From contig CANQXS010000022.1 in the NCBI GenBank assembly GCA_947627875.1, forward strand, positions 1 through 44,847: a stretch of 44,847 nt of DNA, given 5' to 3'. Source of the stretch: an uncultured Clostridia bacterium. Its GTDB lineage: Bacteria > Bacillota > Clostridia > Oscillospirales > Ruminococcaceae. This document shows, in pieces, positions 1-18,010 of this stretch. Below the pieces are notes generated by a model, which was given only the letters and a program-made list of their open reading frames with translations, made no database searches and was not told the origin of the DNA. The position numbers were made by a program, and so were the translations under genes. Position 1 is the stretch's first letter; each line of letters opens with the position of its first letter.

Positions 1-227
1 TCGCGGACAGACTGCAAGTTGCGCACGTCGCCGATGAAGAATTTGACTTTTTTCGCCTGCTCGGGGCATTTTGCCTGAAGTTCGTGGCGCATATCGTCCT
101 GCTTTTTCTCATCGCGGCTGAAGATGCGGATTTCGCCGATGTCGGTATCAAGAAAGTGCTTGAGGACGGTGTTACCGAACGAGCCCGTGCCGCCGGTGAT
201 CATTAATGTCTTATTATTGAAATTCAT
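1..227 (-). CDS. UDP-GlcNAc 4,6-dehydratase-like SDR enzyme (partial, N-terminus only)
   Basis: About 75 N-terminal residues are present; the gene continues past the left edge of the window. The start reads MNFNNKTLMITGGTGSFG, with the glycine-rich NAD(P)-binding loop TGGTGSFG. It is followed by IRIFSRDEKKQDDMRHEL and by FFIGDVRN, both typical of the CapD/FlaA1/PseB family, which makes 4-keto-6-deoxy sugar nucleotides for capsule and O-antigen synthesis. AAGGAG lies 7 nt before the ATG. The start overlaps the end of the upstream glycosyltransferase by 14 nt, so the gene belongs to the same operon. The exact sugar product cannot be told from this fragment; inverting and retaining dehydratases share this N-terminus. 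Confidence 0.85.
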   Translation of the reverse strand, partial: MNFNNKTLMITGGTGSFGNTVLKHFLDTDIGEIRIFSRDEKKQDDMRHELQAKCPEQAKKVKFFIGDVRNLQSVR

Positions 228-1473
228 TTTCTCTTCTCCTTACAGCATTCAATATCAATTCCGCCGTATATTCCGGTCTGTTCATTTCAAAATATGAATA
301 ATCAATAGGCATATTTTCCTTTTCTTCTGTCCACGAATCAAGCCATTCTGTAAGCTGTCTGGCACATTCCTCAATAGGATCCTTGTAAGGAGCTAATACG
401 ATGCCCTTAGAATAATGTTTTATATATTCAGCATTCGGATCATCAGGATTGCCTGAAATATGAACGATTTTCTTTCCGTATGACATATATTCAAATATCT
501 TTGCGGATATCTGATCGGAATATTTAATGCTCACCAATATATTTGCCTCGGAATAAATCTTCATAAGTTCGTCATGCGAGACATATCCCGGAACTCTTAT
601 TTTACCTTTTGTTTCATTTTCGTACGGTTTTAATTTATCTGCATTTTCTCCGCGAGAATAAAACAGCAGTTGTCTATTATGTCCTTTAGAAATTTTTAAA
701 AAAATCTCAAGCAAATCGTCCGTTTTATAATGGGGCATATCAAGCGAACCCGCATATACCCATTTTTCTTCTGCACTTGTATGCTCAGCGCCGATCAGCC
801 TATTCACCGGCGTCATCAGAGGAATGTCGGAATAGAACATTTTATGCTGCCAATTTTCAAACCACGGCTTATCATATTCTTTGATCCTGGAACGCATATA
901 AATAAATTCATCCGTTTCGTTCAAAAATTTGTAAAGCCATTTATTTCTGTTGGACTTCTTTGCTAAAAATGAATATTTCTGATTTATAAATGTATCAAGC
1001 GTATATAGGCAAAACGGAGTATCTTTATGTGATTTTTTAAACCAATATCCTGCTAATGCAGCCTCGAAAGGCTGGTATACGCTTATAATCAAATTGTATT
1101 TATTATTTTTGTGAAGCTTTTCAATTCTGTGCTTTAATCGCAGCGGAAAGCCAAAAGAATACAGCGGGGTAAACGGCAGCATGATCAGCTTACCTAATCT
1201 GTTCATAAATGTAGCGATCGTTTGAAACGGTTTTGCAAAAGGACTGTCGGGAAAATTAAATGAGTAGTTATAAAGGCGGTTTCTTATATCGGGAACGATG
1301 TAATAAACTTTGCAATTATTGTATATATTCTCGCCTTTTATTCCTGTATCCTTGAACGCCAGAATATCAACGCTATATCCCATCTGAACAAAACTGTCGG
1401 CGACTTTTTGCATACATACAGCGTTTGCCAAAGGCTTCGGAAAATATTTATCGGTAATTATCAGAATTTTCAT
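214..1473 (-). CDS. Glycosyltransferase, GT-B fold (GT4-like)
   Basis: 419 residues. The N-terminus MKILIITDKYFPKPLANAV is the usual beginning of GT-B transferases acting on the cytoplasmic face of the membrane. The C-terminal half carries the donor-binding domain: WVYAGSLD, then GYVSHDELMKIYSEANILVSI, then ISAKIFEYMSYGKKIV, the region holding the conserved glutamate of GT4 enzymes. No membrane span is evident. It lies in the exopolysaccharide operon, 5 nt after the previous gene, with only a weak ribosome binding site (AAAGAG), so it may rely on translational coupling. The sugar donor and acceptor cannot be deduced. Its base composition is distinctly AT-rich compared with genes right of about 4.5 kb, consistent with lateral acquisition of the cluster core. 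Confidence 0.85.
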   Translation of the reverse strand: MKILIITDKYFPKPLANAVCMQKVADSFVQMGYSVDILAFKDTGIKGENIYNNCKVYYIVPDIRNRLYNYSFNFPDSPFAKPFQTIATFMNRLGKLIMLPFTPLYSFGFPLRLKHRIEKLHKNNKYNLIISVYQPFEAALAGYWFKKSHKDTPFCLYTLDTFINQKYSFLAKKSNRNKWLYKFLNETDEFIYMRSRIKEYDKPWFENWQHKMFYSDIPLMTPVNRLIGAEHTSAEEKWVYAGSLDMPHYKTDDLLEIFLKISKGHNRQLLFYSRGENADKLKPYENETKGKIRVPGYVSHDELMKIYSEANILVSIKYSDQISAKIFEYMSYGKKIVHISGNPDDPNAEYIKHYSKGIVLAPYKDPIEECARQLTEWLDSWTEEKENMPIDYSYFEMNRPEYTAELILNAVRRRENEFQ

Positions 1474-1478
1474 TTTGC

Positions 1479-2228
1479 TTAGCTCTTTTCCGACATGATA
1501 TTTTTAATTTTTTCCTTTATCCAAAGCGTTCTTTCCCTGCCCAAAATTTTGCTCGTCAACCAAATCAGCTTTCTTATTTTTTTCTTGTTCGAAGACTTCC
1601 AGCTCGCATCATAATGGTGTATAGAATATGTGTTTTCAGTAATATTGACATTATATGTCTGACAATTTATCGGACAAAAATATTCCTCCGGAAAAACAGT
1701 TATCCCCTCAACGGTTTGAATTTCGTTATTTCTTATGTACCCGTATTTTTCAAATGTTGATGTTGTTATTTCAGGGCAAGCTATCTTTGCAAGATCCTTG
1801 CTGTCATTCGGAAAAGGCAGCGATAAATAATCATTCATAAGTATTTTTATAAATGAATGATTTTTTGCAGCTCCAAACCCAAGACCTGTAGCTATCAATC
1901 CTCCATCTTCCGCGCCCATAAACCCATCCAGCAAAAGCAGATCATCAATGTTTCGCAAAAGCTCTACATCAGTGTCGAAATAAATTCCGCCATTTTCATA
2001 AATGATCTTTAACCGCGCATAGTCGGTCACAAAAGCCCATTTTTTCGCATCGTATGCTTGTTTAATAAACGGAATACTGTCAATATCAAAATTAGATTCA
2101 TCCCAACGCTTTATTTCATAATCGGGACAATACTTTTTCCAGCTTTCAATACATCTTTTTGCCGATTCAGGAAGAGGTTTTCCGCCAAACCAACAATAAT
2201 GGATCATCTTTGGAATTCTGTTTTGCAT
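1479..2228 (-). CDS. DXD-motif glycosyltransferase (capsular polysaccharide/OCH1-like)
   Basis: 249 residues. It opens with IPKMIHYCWFGGKPLPES, the signature start of the Gly_transf_sug family. Around residue 90 it has GGIYFDTDVELL, containing the DxD metal and nucleotide-sugar binding motif. These enzymes add a single sugar to a growing lipid-linked polysaccharide repeat. The start is fixed by AGGAG seven nt upstream and by the conserved N-terminal motif. This means the gene begins 62 nt inside the upstream polymerase gene, in another frame. It sits in the AT-rich part of the exopolysaccharide operon. Donor sugar unknown. Confidence 0.9.
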   Translation of the reverse strand: MQNRIPKMIHYCWFGGKPLPESAKRCIESWKKYCPDYEIKRWDESNFDIDSIPFIKQAYDAKKWAFVTDYARLKIIYENGGIYFDTDVELLRNIDDLLLLDGFMGAEDGGLIATGLGFGAAKNHSFIKILMNDYLSLPFPNDSKDLAKIACPEITTSTFEKYGYIRNNEIQTVEGITVFPEEYFCPINCQTYNVNITENTYSIHHYDASWKSSNKKKIRKLIWLTSKILGRERTLWIKEKIKNIMSEKS

Positions 2229-3513
2229 CTAAAATCTCCTCACTGCAATTCAAAATAATAAAAATAATGATCAAAAACGGCGACGTAAAATTCTGGATCA
2301 TATAGCAGCCGTAGCTAATACCGACTATAAAAATCAAGGACAAAATATTAACTAAATTGCATTTTATCGGGCATATCCTATAATGAAGCCACAGCATTAA
2401 AAAAGTGCCTACAAACCCTATATTTGCCAAAGTTTGAATAAGCATACTGTGCGCCAGCACTGTACCTATCCCCACTCCGAAAAGAAAGTGGTCTTTTATT
2501 GCTTCTATCCCGTAAGTTATTGAATTTGCTCTGAAATATCCCGAGTTCCAAGCTTTTTCATTTGATAAGAAAATCTGTAATTTGTTTGTAAATAATTCAA
2601 AGTTACTGAGCACAACAACGACGCAGCCTGCAAGGATCAATGACATAAACACGATTTGGCTGATTTTTTTACGGCGTATCAGCACCACAAAGGTTTGCGC
2701 CAACAAATACGCCGCTAAAATAGCCAGACAGCTGCTGGATCCGCTACAATAAATTGCAATAGCAGATATCACCAGCCAAAGCCATTCGGCTGATTTTATT
2801 TCCCTTTTCTTGAGAAAGATCATATAATATATAGCAATGATGTTAAAATTTGACCGTTCCGTAAACCACAGCGCAACACTATAGCTTCCCCAAGTAAACC
2901 AGTTTTCAGTCTGACTATTCGTTTTTAACGAGAAAATCAATCCCATTAAATTTCTATCATTTATTCCTCCAAAAATGTTGACTACAGCCCATTCAACAAT
3001 AATTCCAATGAAAAGTATCTTAAAAAACATTATCAATCTGTCAAACAAAGTCTTAATATAGTTGTTATCCTTTACTATATCTGCGTTTACTATCGCAAAT
3101 ACAACATATACAAGCATAAATAAGAAATGCTTAATTACAGTAAAATCAACAGTAGGAATAAATTGCTGGTCATTAAGTGAAAAAGCATCTGTTATGGAAT
3201 CTTTGATCAATAAATATCTTTCTGTGCCGAGTTCCCATTCCATTCTTACTAATGGTATTATCATAGAAACAAATAATAAAACTAAAACGAAAATCAAGGA
3301 TCTTTTTAGCTTTGGGTGATACATTAAAGATAACACCGCGCTGAGAAGCATCGGATAAACATATAGCGGCAGTCCGATCATAGGATCATAAGAAGAGAAA
3401 AAGAACAGACTTAATATTATACTGAAGCCGAACAGTTTTTTACGGACGGTATCCGCATTGGTTGATTTTGTAAAAATCAAAACAAGCTCGATCGCTGCAA
3501 TTATAAATAGCAT
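2167..3513 (-). CDS. O-antigen polymerase/ligase-like membrane protein (Wzy-type)
   Basis: 448 residues, almost wholly hydrophobic, with roughly ten to twelve predicted membrane helices. Examples are ILSLFFFSS, MLFIIAAIELVLIF at the N-terminus and FLIIIFIILNC near the C-terminus. A larger polar loop of the kind seen in Wzy/WaaL proteins follows NSGYFRANSITYGIEAIKDH, where FLFGVGIGT resembles the conserved 'GxGxG' region before an external helix. Wzy proteins join lipid-linked repeat units outside the membrane. Assignment rests on topology and on the operon of glycosyltransferases; primary sequence in this family is poorly conserved. The 3' end overlaps the next gene by 62 nt. GGGAAG precedes the ATG. 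Confidence 0.8.
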   Translation of the reverse strand: MLFIIAAIELVLIFTKSTNADTVRKKLFGFSIILSLFFFSSYDPMIGLPLYVYPMLLSAVLSLMYHPKLKRSLIFVLVLLFVSMIIPLVRMEWELGTERYLLIKDSITDAFSLNDQQFIPTVDFTVIKHFLFMLVYVVFAIVNADIVKDNNYIKTLFDRLIMFFKILFIGIIVEWAVVNIFGGINDRNLMGLIFSLKTNSQTENWFTWGSYSVALWFTERSNFNIIAIYYMIFLKKREIKSAEWLWLVISAIAIYCSGSSSCLAILAAYLLAQTFVVLIRRKKISQIVFMSLILAGCVVVVLSNFELFTNKLQIFLSNEKAWNSGYFRANSITYGIEAIKDHFLFGVGIGTVLAHSMLIQTLANIGFVGTFLMLWLHYRICPIKCNLVNILSLIFIVGISYGCYMIQNFTSPFLIIIFIILNCSEEILDAKQNSKDDPLLLVWRKTSS

Positions 3514-3561: not shown

Positions 3562-4665
3562 TTATAAATTAGATTCGTACAGCTCGGTCAACTTACACGC
3601 ACGCTCTGTAATTGAAAACCCATTATTAAATAAATCTCTGTATGCTCTAACATTTCTCGGCAATATGTTCATACTGTTAATGATCTCTGCCCACTCTTTA
3701 GCACTGTCATCTATACCAAGAAACGTTACATTATCTGTCATTTTTGTCTCCGCCGTCATCTTATTTGACAGCACACACGGCAGATCTGCTGCCTGCGCCT
3801 CAACACCAACGACCGGCAAACCTTCGTATCTCGACGGTAAAACGAAAACATCCATCGCCTGATACAGCCTGCTTGCATCGTTTCGATTGCCCAGAAACAA
3901 TACATGGTCGGATAAATATAAGCGTTTGACCTTTTCCTCTATCTTTTCCTTGTCCGGCCCGTCGCCGACTAGCATCAGCACCGCGTTCGGATTCTGCTTA
4001 TAGACTTCCTCAAACACGTCTATCAGAAATTCCTGATTTTTCTGGTAGCAGAACCTCCCGACGTGTCCGATCACAAATTTTCCCTCGAGCCCGAGTTCTT
4101 TTCTGACCTCGTTCCGCACGTTTTCATCATACTTAAACTTGTCCAAATCGATAGCGTTATTAAATATTGTGACCTCGCCGCGCTCCATCGATTTCTTACC
4201 GAAGAGCCATTCGCCGGCATATCTCGAACACGCCGCATAGTGCGTTGCATAAACTTTTGCAAACGGCCGAAGTGTGTATTTCAGAATATTTTTCTTCCAT
4301 TCCCCCGGCGCTGCTGTCGAATGGTTGTGCGCAATTCTCACCGGCACACCTGCCTTTTTAGCGGCATAAAGCGGGAAAACACTCAGCGTGTTGATGTGCG
4401 AATGAACGATTTTATATTGATTTTCCTTGAAAAGCTTTATTAAAGTCGGTATGTATTTATTGAGTTTCTGGTAAGGCGGGACAATATAGATGCGTCCTCC
4501 GAGGCTCTCAATTTCTTCACGAGGAATATATGTTGAGTCTTCATCAACGATAAAATCAAACTGAATTTTACTGCGGTCAATGTGGCGGTAGTAGTTCATC
4601 ACGACCGCTTCGACGCCGCCGTTCATCATCTTCCCAACGACTTGCGCTATGCGAATTGGTTCCAA
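3562..4665 (-). CDS. Glycosyltransferase family 4
   Basis: 367 residues with a GT-B fold. The N-terminus MEPIRIAQVVGKMMNGGVEA matches EpsF-like transferases. HIGHVGR-type text (FVIGHVGRFCYQKNQEFLI) begins the donor domain near residue 195. VFVLPSRYEGLPVVGVEAQA gives the E-x7-E motif typical of retaining GT4 enzymes. The start codon is TTG, preceded by GAGGTG at good spacing; no ATG fits the conserved N-terminus. It follows the sugar transferase gene by 14 nt in the exopolysaccharide operon and probably adds the second or third sugar to the undecaprenyl-linked repeat. Specificity unknown. Confidence 0.9.
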   Translation of the reverse strand: MEPIRIAQVVGKMMNGGVEAVVMNYYRHIDRSKIQFDFIVDEDSTYIPREEIESLGGRIYIVPPYQKLNKYIPTLIKLFKENQYKIVHSHINTLSVFPLYAAKKAGVPVRIAHNHSTAAPGEWKKNILKYTLRPFAKVYATHYAACSRYAGEWLFGKKSMERGEVTIFNNAIDLDKFKYDENVRNEVRKELGLEGKFVIGHVGRFCYQKNQEFLIDVFEEVYKQNPNAVLMLVGDGPDKEKIEEKVKRLYLSDHVLFLGNRNDASRLYQAMDVFVLPSRYEGLPVVGVEAQAADLPCVLSNKMTAETKMTDNVTFLGIDDSAKEWAEIINSMNILPRNVRAYRDLFNNGFSITERACKLTELYESNL

Positions 4666-4679
4666 AATTTCACCTCAAA

Positions 4680-6092
4680 TCAACAATTTTTTGCCCCGAC
4701 CACGGAGCAAATGGTCTTCCACATTATTTTCAAATCCGTCCGAACTCCTCGCTCCCTTATGTACCTATAATCGAGCTCCAACTGTTCCTCATTGCTCATC
4801 TTGGTGGTATCCTCAAGCTGCCAGTAACAGCTCAATCCGGGTTTTACTTGCAGTCTGTCATCAGGCAACTGAGCTTGTTCGCTCGGAATGAACGGGCGTG
4901 GCCCGACAATCGTCATGCTCCCTGTCAAAAGGTTAAGTACCTGTGCGGTCTCGTCAAGGCTTGTCTTCCTTAAAAACTTCCCGACCTTTGTCACCCGCGG
5001 GTCGTTTTCAATCTTGAAATGCACGCTTGCATATTCGTTCTGCTCGGCAAGGTTGACCTTTATCTTCTCTGCGTCTTTGCGCATTGTTCTGAACTTTACC
5101 ATTTTAAATACTTTGCCGTTCTTGCCTACTCTGTCTTGCACAAAGAACGGATTCCCGGGATCGTCGAACACGATTGCAAGCGCTATTATAAGGTAAACCG
5201 GCAATCCTATCGTCAGGCAGATAAGCGAAACTACGATGTCAAAAGCCCTTTTAATGAAGTCGTATAGGGGTTTCGGGGTTACTTCGCACCGCTGCGCAGC
5301 AGCACTGCCTTGACGGTTTGAAGCACTATCCTTATATCCAACAGCGGGCTCATATTCTCTATGTAATACAACTCCATTTGTTGTCTTACCCCCCCCCCGC
5401 GCATATTTTGCCTCATTTCGGGCATACGCCTGCCAGTAGCCGGTCAGACCCGGCTTTACCGACAACAGCGCCTTTTGCTGCTCGGGGGTATAGTATCTTT
5501 CGAGCTCTTCTTGGAGTATAGGTCTCGGTCCGACTAAAGACATATCCGCTTTAAGACAAACATTCCATAAAATCTGCGGAAGCTCGTCTATCGACAACTG
5601 CCTTAGTCTTGCTCCGAAGCAGGTTTTCCCGTCGCCCTCTTTTTTGTAGCCTATGAGCCTCGGGTCGTCGTCAAGCTTATACTCCCGCTTGTACTCCTCT
5701 AACTGCTCGGGAGTCAGCATATTTTCAAGCTTGTCCGCACCTTTACGCATCGTTCTGAATTTTAGTATTTTAAGAGGCTTGCCGTCTTTCCCGACCCGCG
5801 TCTGCAAATAAAACGGGTTTCCGGGATCTTTTATACAGATAGTAAGCGCAACTATCGCCATCGGAATAAGCATAACGATACTCGCCAAAAACGACAGCAC
5901 GAAGTCCGCAAGGCGTTTAAAGAAGGCATATACGGGTCTATTTTTAACCTCCGGCACGGCGCCGGTGTAAACCTCTGTCTGCGGCTCGAGGTCCTTTACA
6001 TCCGTCCGCGTCATCACTATGTCGGAAGTTCCGCTTTTCTCCTCGACCGCCTCGCGCTCCAAAAGAAGCGTACCGTTAATTTCTTCGCTCAA
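4680..6092 (-). CDS. Tandem bacterial sugar transferase fusion (two initiating phosphoglycosyltransferase modules joined through a G10 tract)
   Basis: 470 residues as read. Module 1 (about 50-231): membrane hairpin VLSFLASIVMLIPMAIVAL, then TRVGKDGKPLKILKFRTM, QLSIDELPQ with the catalytic Asp-Glu, SLVGPRP and KPGLTGYWQAYARN. Module 2 (about 272-470): VSLICLTIGLPVYLIIALA, DRVGKNGKVFKMVKFRTM, TSLDETAQ, TIVGPRP and KPGLSCYWQ. Each resembles a complete WcaJ/PglC-type enzyme that places the first sugar phosphate on undecaprenyl phosphate. Residues 236-271 between them look like no known linker. Read one frame over, the same DNA encodes the proper C-terminus of module 1 (RQQMELYYIENMSPLLDI) and a TAA at 5279-5281. 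Module 2 has no ATG, GTG or TTG of its own near its N-terminus. A homopolymer slip at 5389-5398 therefore made, or toggles, the fusion. A sequencing error in the tract is the main alternative. Confidence 0.85.
   Translation of the reverse strand: MSEEINGTLLLEREAVEEKSGTSDIVMTRTDVKDLEPQTEVYTGAVPEVKNRPVYAFFKRLADFVLSFLASIVMLIPMAIVALTICIKDPGNPFYLQTRVGKDGKPLKILKFRTMRKGADKLENMLTPEQLEEYKREYKLDDDPRLIGYKKEGDGKTCFGARLRQLSIDELPQILWNVCLKADMSLVGPRPILQEELERYYTPEQQKALLSVKPGLTGYWQAYARNEAKYARGGGKTTNGVVLHREYEPAVGYKDSASNRQGSAAAQRCEVTPKPLYDFIKRAFDIVVSLICLTIGLPVYLIIALAIVFDDPGNPFFVQDRVGKNGKVFKMVKFRTMRKDAEKIKVNLAEQNEYASVHFKIENDPRVTKVGKFLRKTSLDETAQVLNLLTGSMTIVGPRPFIPSEQAQLPDDRLQVKPGLSCYWQLEDTTKMSNEEQLELDYRYIRERGVRTDLKIMWKTICSVVGAKNC
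5389..5398 (-). repeat. G10 homopolymer (C10 on plus strand) inside the sugar transferase gene
   Basis: Ten consecutive G on the coding strand at codons 232-235. Ten G give the two-module fusion. Nine G would let module 1 finish with its family-typical 36-residue tail and stop at 5279-5281. Eight or eleven G put a TAA directly after the tract. It is therefore a three-state candidate contingency tract. Confidence 0.8.
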
Positions 6093-10115: not shown

Positions 10116-10841
10116 CTATTCTCCGTAATATTGCATATACAGGTTCTCTAAATTCTTCTCGCCGTTTTTGACCTTTTCGCATAACTCGGGGACGGTCCCC
10201 TCGTCGATGAGCTCGCCCTGCTTTATGAGCAAAATGCGGTCGGCAATGGTCTCGATGTCCGAGACGATATGGGTCGAAATGATGACGATTTTGTCCTTCG
10301 AGAGCCTTGAAATCAGGTTTCGCGTGACGACTCGCTGCTTCGGGTCGAGACCGGCGGTCGGCTCGTCCAAAATCAGCAGCTTCGGGTTGCCGAGGAGCGC
10401 CTGAGCGATCAAAACGCGCTGCTTCATTCCGCCCGAGAAGCCGCCTAACTTCTGGTCGGCGCTGTCCGAGAGCTCCACCAAATCCAGAACCCGCTCGACT
10501 TCTCCCTCGATTTTCTCCTTTTTTATGCCCTTGAGCGCGGCGAGATAGCCGACGAACCGCGAGGCGGTGAACGAAGGGTAAAGCTCCTGCTGCTGCGGCA
10601 TAAAGCCGATTCGGCGGCGGTATTTCGCCTGCAATTTATTGATGTCCTCGCCGTTCCAGAGTATCTCGCTGTCGGAGTCGGCGGGTATATTCTGCGTGAT
10701 GACGTTCATCATCGTAGACTTGCCCGCGCCGTTGGGACCTAAGAGCCCGTAAACGCCGTCGTGGAAGTCGTAGTCAAAGTCTATAAGGGCGTGTTTTGAG
10801 CCGTAGTGCTTGTTCACGCCGTTTAAGGATAATGTGTTCAT
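10116..10841 (-). CDS. ABC transporter ATP-binding protein
   Basis: 241 residues. Walker A GPNGAGKST (35-43), Q-loop in GFMPQQQEL, signature FSGGMKQRV and Walker B LLILDEPTAGLDP, then the H-loop in IISTH. It is the nucleotide-binding subunit for the permease encoded 2 nt downstream. The ATG overlaps the stop of lipoprotein A by 4 nt (ATGA), so lipoprotein, ATPase and permease form a translationally coupled unit. The type resembles the ABC-2 drug, peptide and sodium export ATPases; the cargo cannot be inferred. Confidence 0.93.
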   Translation of the reverse strand: MNTLSLNGVNKHYGSKHALIDFDYDFHDGVYGLLGPNGAGKSTMMNVITQNIPADSDSEILWNGEDINKLQAKYRRRIGFMPQQQELYPSFTASRFVGYLAALKGIKKEKIEGEVERVLDLVELSDSADQKLGGFSGGMKQRVLIAQALLGNPKLLILDEPTAGLDPKQRVVTRNLISRLSKDKIVIISTHIVSDIETIADRILLIKQGELIDEGTVPELCEKVKNGEKNLENLYMQYYGE

Positions 10842-11926
10842 GGCTCACTCCTTTTGAACATCTCATCTTCCGGTACTTTCTTGAAATTGCTGCCGAGACC
10901 GTGAATAATATAGCTGCCGTCGTGATAGCAGAGAACAAAGCTGTATTTGGGGATAACGCCCTTATTGAGCTCGAGTATTTCACCGGTCGAAAGGTCGATA
11001 GCGGTGCCGTCGCTATTGAAGTAATAACCGTTGACGGGTAACACGGCGATGTTATCAGGCAGCTCATAGTTTTCAAAAACCATTTCATTACCTTCGCTGT
11101 CAACTATGACTGCATTGTCGCCGTCCATATATCCGTAGTAGCCGCCGCTTGCAAACATCGGCTTCGTTACTTCGTATTCATTCAGCGAGGATATGGGCAT
11201 ATCCCAATCGCTTATTTCACCTGTTTCGAGGTCGAAGCGAACATAAATATCATTATAATCCTGTATATACAAGCCGCCGTTATATTCGCCAAGTATACTC
11301 GGAAGTGCGGGATAATCTGTAAGCTGCCATTTATTGTATTCCTTATTTGTGAAATCATAGCTGCAGATATATGTCTCTCCGTTACCCGTTGCGACGCCCG
11401 TGTGAGCCTCATTCTCCTCCTCGATAACGGTAAAATAGGCGACCGAACCTTTTATCACAAGGTCTTGAATGTAGTCAATATCTTCAAGGGTGTCATACTT
11501 TATCCTCGAACTGCCGTCAAGCTCCGCTTTATAGATATCTTTATATGTGTGCAGCTTTTCGTCTTTGTCCCACTCGTAGTTAGAGCGTATAAAGTAAAGA
11601 TTATTACCTACAACAGTCGGGTGGCTTGTCTCTCCTTGCACTCCGAAAGCGGTGCAGACATCGGGGTCATCATGCGGACAGTTCGGACGGGCGCACAATA
11701 TTGCAGACTTCATAGAATCGAAGTCGAAAAACCACAGCCGCAGACCCGCGACGTTGTCCTCGATATAAAGCATACCGTTGAGATTGAGGTTTGACCAATT
11801 ATTATTCCTGCGAGCGGTCTCATAGCCTTCGGCGTATTCTTTTTCGACGGTATCGACTTTCTCTTCCCCGCCGCAGGAAGTCAGAAGCAATAATACCGAT
11901 AAAATGATTGCAAGCAGTTTTTTCAT
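10838..11926 (-). CDS. Lipoprotein A of a six-member paralogous array (CxPNCxH family)
   Basis: 362 residues from the ATG at 11926 (AAGGAG 8 nt upstream; an in-frame GTG 9 nt earlier lies too close to that site). Signal peptide with lipobox LLTSC (Cys18). A Cys/His motif CARPNCPHDDPDVC (Cys78, Cys83, His85, Cys91) follows FFDFDSM. The rest is beta-rich, with short repeats such as YKAELDGSSRI and YICSYDFTNKEY that suggest a small propeller. The C-terminus ends PEDEMFKR. Its last 150 residues closely match lipoprotein B (DLETGEISDWDMPISSLNE, FENYELPDNI). It is the only member coupled to an ABC transporter. The family is seen in gut Firmicutes but has no function known to me; zinc binding by the motif is a guess. 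Confidence 0.85.
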   Translation of the reverse strand: MKKLLAIILSVLLLLTSCGGEEKVDTVEKEYAEGYETARRNNNWSNLNLNGMLYIEDNVAGLRLWFFDFDSMKSAILCARPNCPHDDPDVCTAFGVQGETSHPTVVGNNLYFIRSNYEWDKDEKLHTYKDIYKAELDGSSRIKYDTLEDIDYIQDLVIKGSVAYFTVIEEENEAHTGVATGNGETYICSYDFTNKEYNKWQLTDYPALPSILGEYNGGLYIQDYNDIYVRFDLETGEISDWDMPISSLNEYEVTKPMFASGGYYGYMDGDNAVIVDSEGNEMVFENYELPDNIAVLPVNGYYFNSDGTAIDLSTGEILELNKGVIPKYSFVLCYHDGSYIIHGLGSNFKKVPEDEMFKRSEP

Positions 11927-11980
11927 ACAGACCACTCCTTGTTGTTTATTAAATATGCGTCAAAACCGTTAATGCCTCAG

Positions 11981-12009
11981 ATTATATTGCATTTGCAATG
12001 AGGAGTCAA
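11981..12009 (-). promoter_or_regulatory. Predicted promoter of lipoprotein A-ABC operon
   Basis: TTGACT (12004-12009), 17-nt spacer, TATAAT (11981-11986) on the minus strand, about 55 nt before the start codon at 11926. Confidence 0.75.
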
Positions 12010-12079
12010 TTCATTTTACACGAACGGTCGAAAAGCCGACACAAACGGTCAAAAAATGCTGAGCGATAATGCGTTCGGC

Positions 12080-13210
12080 TCACCTCTTGAATAATTCATC
12101 TTCGGAAAGCTTGATATATTCGCCGGTCGAGACCTCGCTTGCGACGATATAGCCGTCGCGGTAGCAGAGGACATAGCCGTATTTCGGTATTGCTTTCGGA
12201 TTTAATTCGAGTATCTCACCGCTTGAAAGGTCGATAGCATTACCTGCCTCGGCGTTGAAGAAATACCCGTTTACGGGCGCCGCATAGATGTTGTCGGGCA
12301 GCTCGTAGTTTTCAAAAGTCATCTCGTTGCCCTCGCTGTCGATTATGACCGCGTTTTCGCCGTCCATATATCCGTAGAAGCCGCCGCTCGCAAACATCGG
12401 CTTTGTTTTTCCGTTTTCATTGAGCGAGGATATAGGCATATCCCAGTCGCTTATCTCTCCGGTCTCGAGATCGACCCGAAGCCGGAAATCCGTCCACTCC
12501 CCGCCCCTTTCGGCGGCGCAGTATCCGTCAATATAGAGCCCTCCGCCGTATTCTCCGAACACCGACGCGCCCGCGTCGTAGCCCTCGGCGAGCAGCCCCA
12601 AATTAGAAAACTTCTCCTTTTCGTAGTCGTAGCTGCAAATATAGACCTTTGTATAGCCCGTGCTGACCCCCGTGTAGTCCTCGTATTCCACCTCTGCGGC
12701 GGTAAAGTAAGCGGTCGAGCCCTTTGCCGCAAGGTCGCGGACGGACAAATTTTCGATAGTATCTGCCTTGACCCTCGAGCTGCCGTCGGGAGCGGCTCTG
12801 TAAACCTCGGTGGAAACGATAACTTCGCCGTTTTCTCCCCATTTGCGCTTTTCGCTGAAGAAATACAGCTTGTTGTTTACGACCGTCGGATACCCGCTCC
12901 AGCAGTCGATCCCGAACGCGGTGCAGGTGCGCGGGTCGCTGTGAGGGCAGTTCGGGCGCATACAGAGTATTACCGACTGCATCGAGTCAAAGTCGAAAAA
13001 CCATACCCGTCTCGCCGTGAGGCCGTTAGCGTCCTCGTTTTCGTCGTCGTAGAATATCCCGTTGAGGGTCCGGCTCGTCCGCCTCGGGCTGCGGTACGCA
13101 GTTTCATATCCATCGGCGTATTCTCTGCCTGCGGTCTCTTTCTTTTCCGCGCCGCAGGCACACAGCAGTAAGCAGGCGATGAACAGCGCCGAAATAATAA
13201 GTTTTTTCAT
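12080..13210 (-). CDS. Lipoprotein B of the paralogous array
   Basis: 376 residues. Signal peptide with lipobox LLCAC (Cys19). CMRPNCPHSDPRTC (Cys83, Cys88, His90, Cys96) follows FFDFDSMQSV. Beta-rich repeats include YRAAPDGSSRV and YICSYDYEKEKF. The end reads SEDELFKR. It is the closest paralog of lipoprotein A, nearly identical over the stretch beginning DLETGEISDWDMPISS, but the central part (near SVFGEYGGGLYIDG) has diverged. This is the pattern expected after duplication with relaxed or diversifying change in the middle. GAGGAGGA precedes the ATG, which lies 7 nt after the stop of lipoprotein C, so B and C share a transcript. Role unknown; anchored outside the cell membrane. Confidence 0.85.
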   Translation of the reverse strand: MKKLIISALFIACLLLCACGAEKKETAGREYADGYETAYRSPRRTSRTLNGIFYDDENEDANGLTARRVWFFDFDSMQSVILCMRPNCPHSDPRTCTAFGIDCWSGYPTVVNNKLYFFSEKRKWGENGEVIVSTEVYRAAPDGSSRVKADTIENLSVRDLAAKGSTAYFTAAEVEYEDYTGVSTGYTKVYICSYDYEKEKFSNLGLLAEGYDAGASVFGEYGGGLYIDGYCAAERGGEWTDFRLRVDLETGEISDWDMPISSLNENGKTKPMFASGGFYGYMDGENAVIIDSEGNEMTFENYELPDNIYAAPVNGYFFNAEAGNAIDLSSGEILELNPKAIPKYGYVLCYRDGYIVASEVSTGEYIKLSEDELFKR

Positions 13211-13216
13211 TCCGTG

Positions 13217-14491
13217 TCATTCCTCCTCAAAGAGCTCGGCGGGCAAAAGCTTGCGGAATTCGCGCGTAAATTGGTCGAAAACAATATAACTGCCCTCGTA
13301 ATATGCCGTTATCGCTTCGTTCTCTCCGATCGCGCCCGCTCTGAGCCTGTATATATCTCCGGTCATAAGCTCGGTCGCAAGGAGCGTTTCGGCGTTGAAC
13401 ATCATTCCGTTCACGGGATGATCGGCGGCGCGCTCGGTCAGACGGTGATTTTCGACTTTCCTGATGCTTCCGTCAGGCGAAGCGATTACAGCGGTTTTGC
13501 CCTGCTGACAGACATAAAACCCCTCCGCCGCCGCAACAATATCCGGCGCAGGCCAGTTCATACCCTCGCGGTTGCCCGGAACAGGCAGCTCCGATTCCGT
13601 TATGCTTTCCGTTTCGGGGTCAAGGGCAAATATTCTTGTTACGGTGAGCGAATGAAGGCTGTCAAAGTAGTCGGGCGTGCCCGCGCTCAATCCCTCGGGG
13701 AGTTCCTCGGCGCCCACCGACATATAGTAGATTTTCCCTCCGTATTCGCCGATTACCCCGACAGTGTCGCTCGCATACAGATGCGAGATCTGCCCAAGAT
13801 TTTTGAGCTCGTTTGTTTTAAAATCAAAGCTTTCGACGAAGTAATTATATTCCGCCGCCAAAAGACCGTTTTCGCCCGCGATCTCCTCCGCCGCAACGGT
13901 ATAGCCCCGGTCTCCCGAAACAAATAGACCCGAGAGCGTATAGCCCTCTAAAGTCGCGACTTTTCGGCGCTCCGAGCCGTCCGCGGCGGCTTTATATATA
14001 TTCGCGCAGGAGCTTATGCCGCCTTTTGCCGACATCTCGCGGATATTTTCGACGAAGTATATACTGCCGCCATAGGAGCACAGCATAACGTCGGCGCCGT
14101 TAGACAAGCCGAACGCCGAACACGTTTCGGGGTCGTCATGCAGGCAGTTCGGCTTTGAGCAAACCGGAAAAGAATTCAAAGAAGCAAAATCCGCAAAGCT
14201 CATTCTTCCCGCCGAGGAATAGGCGTCGACATAATACGCTCCGTCGGAGAGCAAAAAGTATCCCGAGCCCTTGGAAGCGCCGAGCTCTTCTATCGCTTGC
14301 CCGCCGGGGAATTTTCCGCCCGTCACCGTTTTAACATCGGCGCGGACCGTTTCCGCGGCGCTCTCGTCGAGCGAAACGACAGCCTCGGTCTCGACTGCAC
14401 GGGAGGTTCCCTGCTCTTTTCGGGTCGCATTATTGCAGCCCGAAGAGAGCAGCATAAAGGCAGATAATAATACTACGGTCAATTTTTTCAT
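13217..14491 (-). CDS. Lipoprotein C of the paralogous array
   Basis: 424 residues from the ATG at 14491 (GAGGTG at good spacing). Lipobox LSSGC (Cys19), then a longer low-complexity spacer than its paralogs (about residues 20-75, rich in Ala, Glu, Ser). CSKPNCLHDDPETC gives Cys111, Cys116, His118, Cys124. It is followed by beta-rich text with YKAAADGSERR and an end ELFEEE. It has its own perfect promoter. Its first 20 nt of leader and ribosome binding site are practically the same as those of lipoprotein D, so the duplication included the 5' region. Unknown function. Confidence 0.85.
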   Translation of the reverse strand: MKKLTVVLLSAFMLLSSGCNNATRKEQGTSRAVETEAVVSLDESAAETVRADVKTVTGGKFPGGQAIEELGASKGSGYFLLSDGAYYVDAYSSAGRMSFADFASLNSFPVCSKPNCLHDDPETCSAFGLSNGADVMLCSYGGSIYFVENIREMSAKGGISSCANIYKAAADGSERRKVATLEGYTLSGLFVSGDRGYTVAAEEIAGENGLLAAEYNYFVESFDFKTNELKNLGQISHLYASDTVGVIGEYGGKIYYMSVGAEELPEGLSAGTPDYFDSLHSLTVTRIFALDPETESITESELPVPGNREGMNWPAPDIVAAAEGFYVCQQGKTAVIASPDGSIRKVENHRLTERAADHPVNGMMFNAETLLATELMTGDIYRLRAGAIGENEAITAYYEGSYIVFDQFTREFRKLLPAELFEEE

Positions 14492-14512
14492 ATAAAACAC
14501 CTCTTTTACGCT

Positions 14513-14541
14513 ATTATACCACAGTATAGCAGAGATGTCAA
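14513..14541 (-). promoter_or_regulatory. Consensus promoter of lipoproteins C and B
   Basis: TTGACA (14536-14541), 17-nt spacer, TATAAT (14513-14518) on the minus strand, 22 nt before the ATG at 14491. Both hexamers match the sigma-A consensus. It is the paralog of the lipoprotein D promoter but has no homopolymer in its spacer. Confidence 0.85.
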
Positions 14542-14552
14542 TACCCTTTAGC

Positions 14553-15683
14553 TCACTCTTCCGAGAAAAGCTCGTTTTTTGCTATTTTTCTGTATTCGTA
14601 CTGCCCCGAATCTTTGTTCAGCCGTTTAACAATATACGACCCGTCCAAGTAATATATTATATCGTCGTATTTATCTATTCCGCTGACGGAATAACGGTCG
14701 CCGCTGTTTATTTCAACGGCAAATTTGTTTTCACCGTCGATTATATAGCCGTCGATAATGCTTACATACGTTGAATTTTGCGTGATGTCGGGAATATATA
14801 TTTCTTTGCCGTCCTCGGTATAAAATGTCGCCCCCTCGTCCTCATAGTGAACAAGACCGCACTCGCATGGGTAATAATCGCCGTCGCGCTCGGAAATTTC
14901 GTTGTTTTGGCGGTTATATTTGAAAGTCTCTCTTAGGCTAGTGGGGATATTGTTCGGATCGTAGACATACTTCTCTTCCAAATATGATACCGTAAAATAT
15001 ATCTCTCCGTTATATTCTCCGTCGATTTGTATGGCGCAGCTGTATCCTTTCTTCATTGAGAACAGCTCCGAAAGCTGACCGCTTTCAAGATCATAGGAAA
15101 ACAGCTTCGCGGTCGGCTCGCTGTGATCGAGAGACAGATCGGTATATCCATGCGTTCTCATTCCGAAATAAAGAGTGCTGCCGATAAGTAAACAGTCTGA
15201 CGAATCCTCCATATCTTCCAAGGTCAGAAGCACTTTTCTGTTTGTGCCGTCGATGTCAGCACGGACGAAATTCATGTTGTAAACGGGCTTGTCTTTTTTC
15301 ATGTAAGAGTCCGCTTCAAAGAAATAAATATTGCCGTTATAAATGAACGGATCAATATCCATTCCGTAGGACGAACAGTCGTGCGTATCGTGCCGGCAGT
15401 TCGGCTTTGAGCAGATAAGCACCGAATCCATTATCGAAAAATCAAAGAAGTTAAGCCGCACCTGCGAATCTATAAACAGCTCGCCGTCGTTTGATATAGC
15501 CATTGACGGACCGTATCTTTTGCCGTCGTATTCCGCGCCGTCGGATTGAATTTCCCCGCCCGCCGCCTCGGATATACCGTCGGAGCCGACCGGCTCGCCG
15601 CTCTGCGGAAAGGTTCCGCTTTTTTCGCCGCAGGCTGTCAGAAGCAGTATTGCGGCAAAAATAATCGCTGATAATTTTTTCAT
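14553..15683 (-). CDS. Lipoprotein D of the paralogous array, under a G-tract promoter
   Basis: 376 residues from the ATG at 15683 (AGAGGTG upstream). Lipobox LLTAC (Cys18), then a Gly/Ser/Glu-rich spacer. CSKPNCRHDTHDC gives Cys91, Cys96, His98, Cys103, following FFDFSIMDSVLI. Beta-rich body with VRADIDGTNRKVL and LFSYDLESGQL. The C-terminus reads YLDGSYIVKRL and KNELFSEE. An extra Cys pair (YPCECGLVHYED) lies near residue 285. It is the one member whose promoter holds a long G run in the spacer. If that run varies in length, this lipoprotein would be phase-variable. Function unknown. Confidence 0.85.
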   Translation of the reverse strand: MKKLSAIIFAAILLLTACGEKSGTFPQSGEPVGSDGISEAAGGEIQSDGAEYDGKRYGPSMAISNDGELFIDSQVRLNFFDFSIMDSVLICSKPNCRHDTHDCSSYGMDIDPFIYNGNIYFFEADSYMKKDKPVYNMNFVRADIDGTNRKVLLTLEDMEDSSDCLLIGSTLYFGMRTHGYTDLSLDHSEPTAKLFSYDLESGQLSELFSMKKGYSCAIQIDGEYNGEIYFTVSYLEEKYVYDPNNIPTSLRETFKYNRQNNEISERDGDYYPCECGLVHYEDEGATFYTEDGKEIYIPDITQNSTYVSIIDGYIIDGENKFAVEINSGDRYSVSGIDKYDDIIYYLDGSYIVKRLNKDSGQYEYRKIAKNELFSEE

Positions 15684-15712
15684 ATAAAACACCTCTTTCG
15701 TTATGTGCCTAA

Positions 15713-15742
15713 ATTATACCCCCCCCCGAAGAAATTTGTCAA
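15713..15742 (-). promoter_or_regulatory. Promoter of lipoprotein D with a G9 tract in the spacer
   Basis: TTGACA (15737-15742) and TATAAT (15713-15718) on the minus strand are both consensus. The 18-nt spacer between them consists of nine mixed bases followed by nine G. The -10 lies 29 nt before the ATG at 15683, so the untranslated leader is about 23 nt. Loss of one G gives the optimal 17-nt spacing; gain of one or two should weaken the promoter. Confidence 0.85.
15719..15727 (-). repeat. G9 homopolymer (C9 on plus strand) between -35 and -10
   Basis: Nine consecutive G on the transcribed-sense strand, directly against the TATAAT of the lipoprotein D promoter. It is one of only two G/C runs of this length in the window; the other is the G10 in the sugar transferase gene. 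Confidence 0.85.
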
Positions 15743-15750
15743 GCCCGCTT

Positions 15751-16926
15751 TTATTCCGATATGAACTCATCGCCCGAAACGGCGCAGTAAAGCGTTTGCT
15801 GCGAATCAAAGTCGAAATATCTTATTATGTATTTGCCGTCGAGATATTTAGCGACATATCCCGCCTTTACGTTTTCTTCGGCGACGGTTACGGTTACCTC
15901 TTTGCCGTCGGAGAGCCTGCGGGCTTTGCACCCGCCCGTGGAAAGGTCGTCGAAAATATATCCGTTCGCAACCGCTTTGTCGTTTCCGTTGTAATTCTCT
16001 ATAAATATCTCCCTGCCGTTCGGACCGATTATAAGCGTATCGACACAGTCGGAACATATCATCGCGCCCTCTTTTATCTGTGCGTATATCGGCAGTATCG
16101 GGGCGCTCGGGTCTGATTCGCGCTTTTTATGCGCCGATAATATTTTCTCGGGAAGCTCCCAGTCGGTTATTTCAAGCGTTTCAAGGTCAAGCTTTTTGTA
16201 TTCGGCAACACTCACCCGCCGAAGCTCCTCGCCGTTATGCTTTCTTGCCTCATCGGTGTCCCCTTCCCGCCAGTCGGCGTTTTCCTCCTGATAGTTGAGA
16301 ATAAAATACAGCTCTCCGCCGAGCTCGCCGCAAAAAGTTACGTCTGCAGAATATCCCGCGCACAAAAACTCGTTTACCGCAAGTCTTTTATTGGCGAAGT
16401 CATACCCGCAGAGATACAGCTCGCGCACGCCGAACGGTCTGCCCTCGGGGTGTTCGTTGACCCCGCCGAAATACAAAACGCCGCTTCCGAAAGCCGAACC
16501 CGCGCCCGAAAGCAAGGTGACGCCGTCTACGGTGTCGGTCTTTACCCGCCCCGTGCCGTCGATGGCGGCTTTATAAACGTTCAGACCGCTTACGGTCTTA
16601 TCGCCCTCGCAGCGGGTGCTGTCCTCGAACCAGTATATATTGCCGCCGACGGTGACCGGGTGATTATCCATACCGAGTGCGGAGCAGCTTTCGTCGGTGT
16701 GGGGGCAGTTCGGCTTCGGGCAGATTATAACGTCGGTGACCGATGAAAAATCGGCAAAGTGAAGCCGCTGTGCGGTATCTACATAAAGCTCGCCGTTTTC
16801 GTATTGAAAGCGGTCGTTGTAGTCGATTACGAAATATTCGGAGGGAGCCGACGACGAGCTTGCGGATTTTCCGCAGCCGCTCAGAAACAGCGCAAGCGCC
16901 AAAATTATCCAGAGTGATTTTTTCAT
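15751..16926 (-). CDS. Lipoprotein E of the paralogous array
   Basis: 391 residues. Lipobox FLSGC (Cys18) followed by a Ser-rich spacer. CPKPNCPHTDESC gives Cys69, Cys74, His76, Cys81, after LHFADFSSVTDVI. The body is beta-rich: YKAAIDGTGRVKTD, LYLCGYDFANKRL and ICSDCVDTLII (an additional CxxC-like pair near residue 300). The end YLDGKYIIRYFDF and SGDEFISE matches the family. AGGAG precedes the ATG. It lies 25 nt after lipoprotein F, so E and F probably share one transcript. Unknown function; outer-face membrane anchoring by lipid is the only firm inference. Confidence 0.85.
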   Translation of the reverse strand: MKKSLWIILALALFLSGCGKSASSSSAPSEYFVIDYNDRFQYENGELYVDTAQRLHFADFSSVTDVIICPKPNCPHTDESCSALGMDNHPVTVGGNIYWFEDSTRCEGDKTVSGLNVYKAAIDGTGRVKTDTVDGVTLLSGAGSAFGSGVLYFGGVNEHPEGRPFGVRELYLCGYDFANKRLAVNEFLCAGYSADVTFCGELGGELYFILNYQEENADWREGDTDEARKHNGEELRRVSVAEYKKLDLETLEITDWELPEKILSAHKKRESDPSAPILPIYAQIKEGAMICSDCVDTLIIGPNGREIFIENYNGNDKAVANGYIFDDLSTGGCKARRLSDGKEVTVTVAEENVKAGYVAKYLDGKYIIRYFDFDSQQTLYCAVSGDEFISE

Positions 16927-16951
16927 ATAAACCGCTCCTCTGCACCGACTG

Positions 16952-18010
16952 TCAGGAGATAACGCATGTCGCCAAAAGGCTTATCTCGTCGCCGACGACC
17001 TCGTCTTCATCAAGCCAATCAAACGTCCAGTCGAACCAGTCGTATACGAGATATTTGCCGTCCTTGTAAACTTTCGGGCCCCAGAAAACCGTCGAGACGA
17101 GGTTTTTATAAAGCTTTCCAGTTTCGATATCGTAAACCCCCGCGCCGATAAACAGCTTGCCGTTCACGACTCTGTAGCCGTAAATGTCGCCCTCCATAAC
17201 CTCAAATTTCTTTTCCGAGCCGTCCTCGGCGGTCAGAACGGCGCTGCCGTCTTCCTCGGTTATCATATAGCCGCCCTCGATCTGAATCGGGAATACGTCC
17301 TCCTCTTTAAGCTTTCCGGAGGAGAGGTCAAAAGTCGCGGCAAGGCGGTTTTTCTTTTCGGTATTGCCGGTAAACCATATCTTCCCGCCGAAAACTCCCT
17401 TGAAGCTTACGCGCAGATACTCCTCCCAATCGGGGAATATATCCGAAAAGTCGGCGGCAAGCTCGGTCTTCCTGCTCCCGAAATCGTAGGAATAAAGATA
17501 AGCGCCCCGTTTTTCGGCAAAGGAGCCGTATTCGTCAAAGGCAGGGTCGGAGCAGATGATATAGAGCTTATCCCCCGCAGAAAGAAGCGAGAGCGTATCG
17601 GCCTGGGCGGAAAGCTCGGCCTCTTTTCTTCTCTCGGTGCCGTCGGTCTTGGCGGAATGAACAAAGCTCAGCCCCTTGTCCTCGACGGTCACCCAGTATA
17701 TCCTGCCGCCGTGAGCTATGACCGCCTCGCCCGAGCTGCCAAAGCAGAGTGCAAAGCACTCGTCGGGGTCGGTGTGGGGGCAGTTCGGCTTCGGGCAGAC
17801 CACCGTCTGTTTTCCGGTATCGAAATCCACAAAGCAAAGGGTATACTTTGAGCCGTTCTGCGCGGAAAAATCGCGCTTGAAGTACATATTTTCGTTTGAA
17901 CTCGTCCTCCCCGAGCCGCTCACAAGGAGCCAGTCTCCGCCGGCGGAGCTTTTGGGCGCGCAGCCCGCCAGAAGCAGAATGCAAAGGATAGCGATAAAAA
18001 CTTTTTTCAT
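16952..18010 (-). CDS. Lipoprotein F of the paralogous array
   Basis: 352 residues. Lipobox LLAGC (Cys17). CPKPNCPHTDPDEC gives Cys72, Cys77, His79, Cys85, with one more Cys at 89, after VDFDTGKQTV. The body has SAKTDGTERRKEAEL and YLYSYDFGSRKTEL. The end (WFDWTFDWLDEDEVVGDEI) departs from the ELF ending of the others. GGGAGG precedes the ATG. It is first in the array. The only promoter-like pair upstream is TTGACT and TAGAAT separated by 19 nt (about 18047-18082), a weak match. It is the most divergent and shortest paralog. Confidence 0.82.
   Translation of the reverse strand: MKKVFIAILCILLLAGCAPKSSAGGDWLLVSGSGRTSSNENMYFKRDFSAQNGSKYTLCFVDFDTGKQTVVCPKPNCPHTDPDECFALCFGSSGEAVIAHGGRIYWVTVEDKGLSFVHSAKTDGTERRKEAELSAQADTLSLLSAGDKLYIICSDPAFDEYGSFAEKRGAYLYSYDFGSRKTELAADFSDIFPDWEEYLRVSFKGVFGGKIWFTGNTEKKNRLAATFDLSSGKLKEEDVFPIQIEGGYMITEEDGSAVLTAEDGSEKKFEVMEGDIYGYRVVNGKLFIGAGVYDIETGKLYKNLVSTVFWGPKVYKDGKYLVYDWFDWTFDWLDEDEVVGDEISLLATCVIS

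Follow-up and report, generated by a model that had tools for sequence, protein, structure and literature searches.

A poly-G tract as a probable switch between two tandem priming enzymes of polysaccharide synthesis in an uncultured gut Clostridia bacterium

The locus

The stretch of DNA analysed here, in the following called the window, has a length of 44,847 nucleotides (contig CANQXS010000022.1, positions 1 to 44,847; assembly GCA_947627875.1) and comes from an uncultured Clostridia bacterium of the Ruminococcaceae. Its features are given in Table 1: an open reading frame (ORF) with two modules of the priming phosphoglycosyl transferase (PGT) type, genes for glycosyltransferases and a polymerase-like protein on the same strand, and two runs of G, one within the PGT reading frame and one in a promoter-like sequence.

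Table 1. Features of the window, with coordinates and the basis of their assignment
Feature	Coordinates	Strand	Remarks
Glycosyltransferase	214..1473	-	Pfam Glycos_transf_1
DXD sugar-binding glycosyltransferase	1479..2228	-	Pfam Gly_transf_sug, 1.1e-16
Wzy/O-antigen-ligase-like polymerase	2167..3513	-	Pfam Wzy_C, 2.5e-8
GT4-type glycosyltransferase	3562..4665	-	Pfam Glycos_transf_1; next downstream of the PGT ORF
Fused two-module priming PGT ORF, as read (G10)	4680..6092	-	470 codons; TTG start at 6092, stop 4682-4680
Module 2, complete PF02397 (positions 1-178)	4698..5252	-	SLDE catalytic pair
Inter-module linker (fusion frame)	5276..5388	-	nearly the same bases as the tail; disordered in the model
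Module 1 C-terminal tail	5279..5386	-	read from module 1 at 9 or 12 G; TAA stop 5281-5279
G10 tract, flanks GCGC-G10-TAA	5389..5398	-	in the loop ahead of the two final helices of module 1
Putative internal start: GAGG (5414-5411), six bases, ATG (5404-5402)	5402..5414	-	frame count
Module 1 core	5406..5918	-	PF02397 positions 1-146; SIDE catalytic DE pair
Second tract, G9 (15727-15719), in 18-base TTGACA/TATAAT spacer	15713..15742	-	upstream of gene 14553-15692

In a Pfam profile search PF02397 matches the fused ORF twice (4.8e-100; 332.9 bits against a curated cut-off of 27), and both modules match. Module 1 begins approximately 50 residues after the start codon; neither a Pfam domain besides PF02397 nor the N-terminal four-helix membrane bundle and DUF of the WbaP type was found in the fused ORF. 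Both modules carry the Asp-Glu pair, and that of module 1 (D169/E170) is invariant in both homologue alignments (A2 and A3). PF02397 positions 150–178 are matched separately, at 5300–5386, by an orphan tail with the sequence RQQMELYYIENMSPLLDIRIVLQTVKAVLLRSGAK, which begins at 5386 and is read in another frame than the fusion. Two residues of this tail, Y243 and D252 (numbering of L116, a homologous copy from another genome), are the same in every one of the 28 homologues aligned.

The two modules differ from each other. Module 2 and the stand-alone relatives L119 and L122 contain EDTTKM or TDTTNM at a position where most homologues have GRN or ARN, and the loop after the DPR motif is longer in module 1 in the homologue alignment. 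For WbaP and PglC, sugar choice has been tentatively attributed to differences around the Asp-Glu pair, in a loop and at the C-terminus (PMC10942596). It is thus likely that modules 1 and 2 use different donor sugars.

The second tract of the window lies in a perfect TTGACA-18-TATAAT arrangement, which makes phase variation of a promoter likely. The gene behind it (14553–15692) is lipoprotein-like from the reading of its N-terminus and is without a Pfam match; it belongs to an apparent family of tandem paralogues at approximately 10838–18010.

Tract length and reading frame

Which frame is read in this surface-related gene depends on the length of the G10 tract. Counted from the tract in the frame of module 1, lengths of 8, 9, 10, 11 and 12 G are followed by 3, 39, 239, 4 and 40 codons, the outcomes being stop, tail, fusion, stop and tail, respectively. 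These counts bear out the first-pass annotation, which had placed the tract at 5389–5398 near the end of module 1 (coordinates that hold, on the minus strand) and had claimed that nine G lead into the module 1 tail with its stop at 5279–5281, that ten G give one fused chain running into module 2, and that with eight or eleven G a TAA after the tract truncates module 1. As to chance, the window contains five overlapping G8 matches, three in the G10 tract and two in the G9 at 15719–15727, and the shuffled window a mean of 1.14, five being reached by 3 of 100 shuffles, which for the window alone is modest evidence.

The locus is probably a phase-variable contingency locus, in the first gene of a polysaccharide cluster, that switches between priming enzymes. 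Replication slippage in the poly-G would shift the frame just ahead of the two C-terminal helices of a monotopic PGT. If the tract has 9 or 12 G, its own tail would complete module 1, which would act alone (enzyme A). With 10 G, module 1 would lose its tail, and module 2 would be the complete catalytic unit of the fused chain (enzyme B). A tract of 8 or 11 G would cut module 1 short, and module 2 would either be absent or be made alone from ATGs that precede the tract. We infer from the sequence that the tract slips in living populations, that module 1 without its tail is inactive and that the surface glycan is altered by the switch.

The first-pass annotation had also noted that an ATG, GTG or TTG is missing near the N-terminus of module 2, whose synthesis therefore appeared to depend on the ten-G frame or on slippage. 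The first part stands for the DNA behind the tract: in none of five tandem copies (the window and four from related genomes, see below) is there an ATG, GTG or TTG in the module-2 frame between the tract and the module-2 core, the nearest start in this frame lying 24 codons inside the module in the window and 15–24 codons inside across the five copies. The second part has to be modified, since three ATGs are located 27, 18 and 6 bases upstream of the tract in the window, which at 8 or 11 G lead into module 2 (240–248 codons). At 10 G the same ATGs read the tail as a peptide of 41–48 codons, and at 9 G they meet a stop within 5–12 codons. Because the ATGs are in the module-2 frame at 8 or 11 G, the third state need not be an off state but may consist of module 2 on its own, translated from putative internal starts. 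The three ATGs are common to the window, L115, L116 and L117, and in L114 there are ATGs in an equivalent relation, from which module 2 is reached at 10 G. Four tract-free orthologues (L118, L120, L121 and L131) are without the GAGG and without the middle ATG.

The same tandem in related genomes

The tandem was searched for in 60 genomes (the own genome and 59 relatives) and was found in genomes of the same genus, in five copies including that of the window. Genome G017 harbours two paralogues of the tandem (L041/L116 and L042/L117), and the tract is G9 in each. In L115 (Lapin-023 bin87) the tract is G11 and is immediately followed by TAA. In L114 (Lapin-030 bin75) a G9 is followed by TCAG, and the two modules are fused in a shifted register, in which the tail would be read at 8 or 11 G; the L114 lineage has thus shifted its register and yet kept both reading choices. 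The name "Lapin" in these two assemblies suggests an origin from rabbit gut. At the homologous site the tract lengths are therefore G9, G9, G10 and G11, plus G9 in another register, each state being a single assembly consensus and coming from a different species. The three states that had been predicted from one sequence (tail, stop and fusion) are carried by related genomes at the same site.

These copies also bear on the question whether the ten G are real. It could be argued that the true length is nine, that the fusion is an assembly error and that module 2 is a decaying remnant: the tract length in the window is a single consensus from a metagenome assembly, poly-G stretches are difficult to sequence (PMC9187656), and module 2 has undergone exchange (see below). 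Against this stand the L114 copy, which is fused with G9 and a different following sequence, so that fusion does not need a count of ten; module 2, which is open in all five copies; and the tract class itself, which is genus-wide and has a constant flank. We consider an assembly error highly improbable. According to the first-pass annotation, a switch would have been contradicted by one invariant length other than ten with a normal start of module 2 restored, or by relatives that all carry the fusion without any homopolymer. Neither was encountered among the five tandem copies found: the tract is present in all of them, and none has a start between the tract and module 2.

Besides these five copies, a second tandem PGT pair was found in L052 (G020:C41, 1239–2583), with a G9 exactly at the junction. 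Here, 9 G end the first enzyme, 10 G add a short run and 8 or 11 G continue through the second enzyme, for which a GTG start is possible. In L136 (mouse-gut assembly iMGMC-826, approximately 3900–5200) a pair of PGT modules is fused into a single ORF that has no G run of six or more. L051 of G029 was considered as another fixed PGT fusion and was rejected, there being stops between its two PGTs. In the own genome another priming transferase (L008, G000:C32:3150–3694) has a frame-shifted core, the shift not being at a G tract.

Selection on overlapping frames and exchange of module 2

The tail and the linker are encoded by nearly the same bases in two frames, and the substitutions can be counted in each. 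In the tail frame the window differs from both L116 and L117 by 8 synonymous changes, and by 1 and 0 non-synonymous changes, respectively; in the linker frame there are approximately 1.5 synonymous and 9.5 and 8.5 non-synonymous changes in the same comparisons. Between L116 and L117 the ratio of synonymous to non-synonymous changes is 7/1 in the tail frame and 0/8 in the linker frame. The test rests on window/L115, L116 and L117, because the tail of L114 is far diverged from that of the window (15 synonymous and 20 non-synonymous changes) and because window and L115 differ by a single change in the stretch from the tract to the stop of module 1. The tail frame is conserved, and both frames look as if they were used.

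Module 2 is open in L116 and L117 even though both are in the G9 state, and between these two copies it shows 44 synonymous and 7 non-synonymous changes and no stop in the 175 codons compared. The module-2 copies of the tandems are not monophyletic: the L115 copy falls together with a stand-alone PGT of G003 (86/93), whereas module 1 of L115 stays near module 1 of the window. Since there is no module-2 clade and since module 2 of L115 is found beside the stand-alone PGT, module 2 has been exchanged with stand-alone genes in at least one copy. Gene conversion from such genes could partly keep module 2 open.

Structure models

The 270-residue protein of L116 in its G9 state was modelled with AF2 with a mean pLDDT of 81.9 and a pTM of 0.75. 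The model ends with two helices (235–245 and 249–265), and the tract codons lie in the loop that precedes them. For the fused 470-residue chain the model is of moderate quality (mean pLDDT 66.7, pTM 0.43), with pLDDT values below 50 at residues 218–271, and its last two helices are present in module 2 only. Complete C-terminal helices are thus modelled on module 2 and on module 1 of L116 in the G9 state, and none on the fused module 1. The AF2 model matches structures of PglC and WbaP (four chains, E <= 0.001), and seven sequence matches in the PDB all fit module 2 best. Fold and family are common to the window modules and PglC/WbaP (8g1n, 8e37, 8t53, 9s7s). The window locus differs from WbaP in lacking the N-terminal membrane bundle and the DUF domain, and from both in having a tandem of two modules under a tract.

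The models are relevant to a different reading of the ten-G state, namely that both heads of the fused chain are active or that module 1 is completed in trans by the tail peptide. Indeed, the fused module 1 retains its core and its DE pair, the internal ATGs would read the tail as a separate peptide (41–48 codons) at exactly this tract length, the single ORF of L136 combines a pair of PGT modules in the absence of a G run, and the slipped frame of L052 would join two PGTs with the tail of the first nearly complete. In the window, however, the fused module 1 is without the invariant Y and D of the tail and without the last two helices, and the first module of L136 retains its own tail. A two-headed enzyme or completion in trans is in our opinion decidedly unlikely.

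A class of poly-G tracts in genome, genus and order

The own genome (2.57 Mb, 50 contigs) contains 13 runs of G7, 2 of G8 and 18 of G9 or longer. These counts set the runs of at least nine G apart as a separate class, distinct from the far end of a decaying length distribution. These tracts are preceded by C in 18 of 18 cases and followed by T in 16 and by TA in 14. Within the genus, 94 instances of CGGGGGGGGGTA were counted, spread over 17 of the 31 genomes, and the backwards pattern does not occur there at all; among 394 genomes of the order CGGGGGGGGGTA is found in 49 genomes at about 120 places, and the reversed control gave 8 instances, from 7 genomes.

For the analysis of the flanks, tracts were pooled from sites fetched with CG9TA (L082–L111), 120 of the matches listed for the flank-neutral pattern HG9H, the 18 tracts of the own genome and by-catch. 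In this pool, which is partly biased and in which G10 and longer runs are under-sampled outside the own genome, 115 of 159 distinct tracts have C..T flanks. Runs of more than 12 G (2 of 159) were dropped from the flank counts, and 4 more tracts with short flanks were dropped in the grouping by flank homology, which reduced 153 tracts to 113 groups, 75 of them with C..TA. In shorter runs at the same loci C..TA is found in 42 of 1263 G4, 10 of 324 G5, 3 of 36 G6, 1 of 9 G7 and 1 of 4 G8. Upstream of the tract, AAA[AT]T is present at −13 to −4 in 44 of 85 C-left, non-promoter groups; the controls gave a mean of 2.4 and a maximum of 7 for random points (400 draws) and 69 of 2772 for C-N9-TA points. 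Many tracts across the genus lie in the motif AAAWTT-N3-KC-G9-TA, and this is beyond chance. There are also 18 T-left tracts, with G at −2 in 78% and TA after the G9; half of them (9/18) come from G025, G005, G024 and G019 (L282–L287, L290, L292). Many long G runs are found in G014, G001 and G002 (for example G23 in L100 of G014), and these are probably sequencing or assembly artefacts.

Several explanations of the class were considered and put aside. Loss of mismatch repair as the cause was rejected: mutS1 and mutL are each above the cut-off in 30 of 31 genomes of the genus, the sole genome below it for both being G021, which is 84% complete, and both genes are present in the own genome; the tracts therefore do not reflect a repair-deficient lineage. 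Copying of tracts within a genome (microhomology seeding) is unsupported: the bases near the tracts showed no clear surplus of similarity within genomes, the observed value being reached by 66, 54 and 47 of 300 permutations (control 250/300). Insertion of a fixed cassette does not agree with the one clear pair of homologues, L120:6665 and the tract-free L221: AAAAATTTT is already there upstream in L221, and the tract replaces other bases. That the A/T element pre-exists in one tract-free homologue speaks for a preference for the site. A need for stop codons does not explain the TA flank, since by column frequencies TAA or TAG results in no more than roughly half of the C..T tracts outside promoters. 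Finally, a codon-usage model for the coding strand was too weak, 62 of 115 tracts being unscored on both sides.

It is conceivable, and we put it forward as a tentative proposal that is at present more doubtful than not, that the G tracts arise by a sequence-directed process at a bipartite site, with the window locus as a three-way selector of A, A-B or B alone. If this were so, the site would consist of AAAWTT, three or four bases, C, the G run and TA; a dedicated factor would make, keep or tune the G runs; and length-variable switches could be installed in chosen surface genes and promoters. The near-constant flanks (C, TA and the upstream A/T element) show a preference that slippage alone does not answer.

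Genes carrying tracts

Tracts in a TTGACA/TATAAT spacer were flagged in 16 of 157 cases, one of which (L131) lies inside an apparent acetyltransferase gene; among the C-left flank groups 8 of 93 are promoter-like. The tract-adjacent ORF pieces (not genes) were assigned to Pfam families, with the tally including only pieces of at least 85 codons on the G strand and excluding 23 hand-picked loci (the four PGT copies and 19 that were GC-rich-looking, artefact-like or off-class). The 101 pieces gave matches to 61 families, among them Acyl_transf_3 (19), hexapeptide repeats (4), solute-binding proteins (4), Glycos_transf_1 (3), and DegT, LRR_5 and subtilase with two pieces each. Among the genes that carry tracts in the own genome are those for a C5 DNA methylase, two subtilases, two acyltransferases, an epimerase, an aminotransferase, an RpiB-like isomerase, a LytTR regulator and a MurT-like ligase; the pieces L066 and L072 had no match in the Pfam scan. 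Tracts in the genus are often found in genes for surface polysaccharides and surface proteins, and some in promoters.

The MurT-like gene was considered as a single-copy control and rejected, being present in only 4 of 31 genomes. Its orthologues in these four genomes (G000:C9, approximately 5490–5501; L067, L294–L297) have tracts of G9, G6, G8 and G9, all with C..TA, and a continuous frame only in G015 (G8), the other three being out of frame at the tract. Such genes raise the possibility that RNA polymerase or the ribosome slips, so that one genotype yields several products without a change in DNA length. This would suit the three out-of-frame MurT-like orthologues as well as module 2, which is open in the copies read with G9. 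On the other hand, the lengths differ between orthologues (9, 10 and 11 in the tandem; 6, 8, 9 and 9 in the MurT-like gene), which slippage of the DNA explains directly, and tracts of the same class in promoter spacers cannot act via translation. Slippage of RNA polymerase or ribosome is thus unlikely to be the main explanation, and DNA slippage remains the preferred reading of the tandem.

Comparison with known systems

Homopolymer switches usually turn a single gene on or off. Poly-G contingency loci of Campylobacter, Helicobacter and Neisseria are found in surface-glycan genes, in methylase genes and in promoters, and the tract gene set described here resembles this usual content. The window class differs in occurring in Clostridia and in genomes with mutS and mutL. 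The near-fixed flank motif is a feature of the window class.

Closer precedents are tracts that join two ORFs. In Bifidobacterium breve UCC2003 the pilus loci bbr_0113a/b and bbr_1889a/b contain intragenic G10/G11 tracts, and slippage joins the first ORF to a second ORF without active translation initiation (PMC9187656). As in the window, the tract is intragenic and fuses two ORFs, and B. breve is a gut commensal; but its pilus is formed from the fused state only (PMC9187656), whereas in the window G9 would give a complete first enzyme and the fusion a complete second one. In Helicobacter canadensis a poly-G near the 3' end alters the C-terminus, and a merger of HCAN_0660/0661 into one protein was considered possible, and perhaps unprecedented, by the authors in the accessible sections of their paper (PMC2823697). 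There the proteins are hypothetical and, as far as these sections go, no selection test accompanies them (PMC2823697); in the window there are two homologous catalytic modules, and the alternative tail frame is conserved.

What is new relative to these precedents is that both alternatives are, as predicted from the sequence, complete enzymes of one family acting at the priming step. One tract appears to select between two homologous polysaccharide-starting enzymes, and therefore one base could change the sugar under the whole chain. The poly-G contingency repertoire is thereby placed in uncultured gut Clostridia. The flank motif could be the part that goes beyond known poly-G fusion switches. 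Among the literature matches listed for flank motifs, phase-variable PGTs, poly-G switches in gut Clostridia/Firmicutes and tract-made fusions, there was no earlier report of the locus or of the motif; one of the listed papers, on flagellar glycans of Clostridium (PMC13317340), contains the words phase variation and homopolymeric.

Two further tracts of the own genome may be mentioned. In L056 (G000:C2:27361–27369) a G9 lies within a gene resembling C5 cytosine DNA methylases, where phase-variable methylation is possible. In L059 (G000:C6:40462–40470) a G9 lies six bases before the putative TTG start of a LytTR response regulator and occupies the position expected for the ribosome-binding site.
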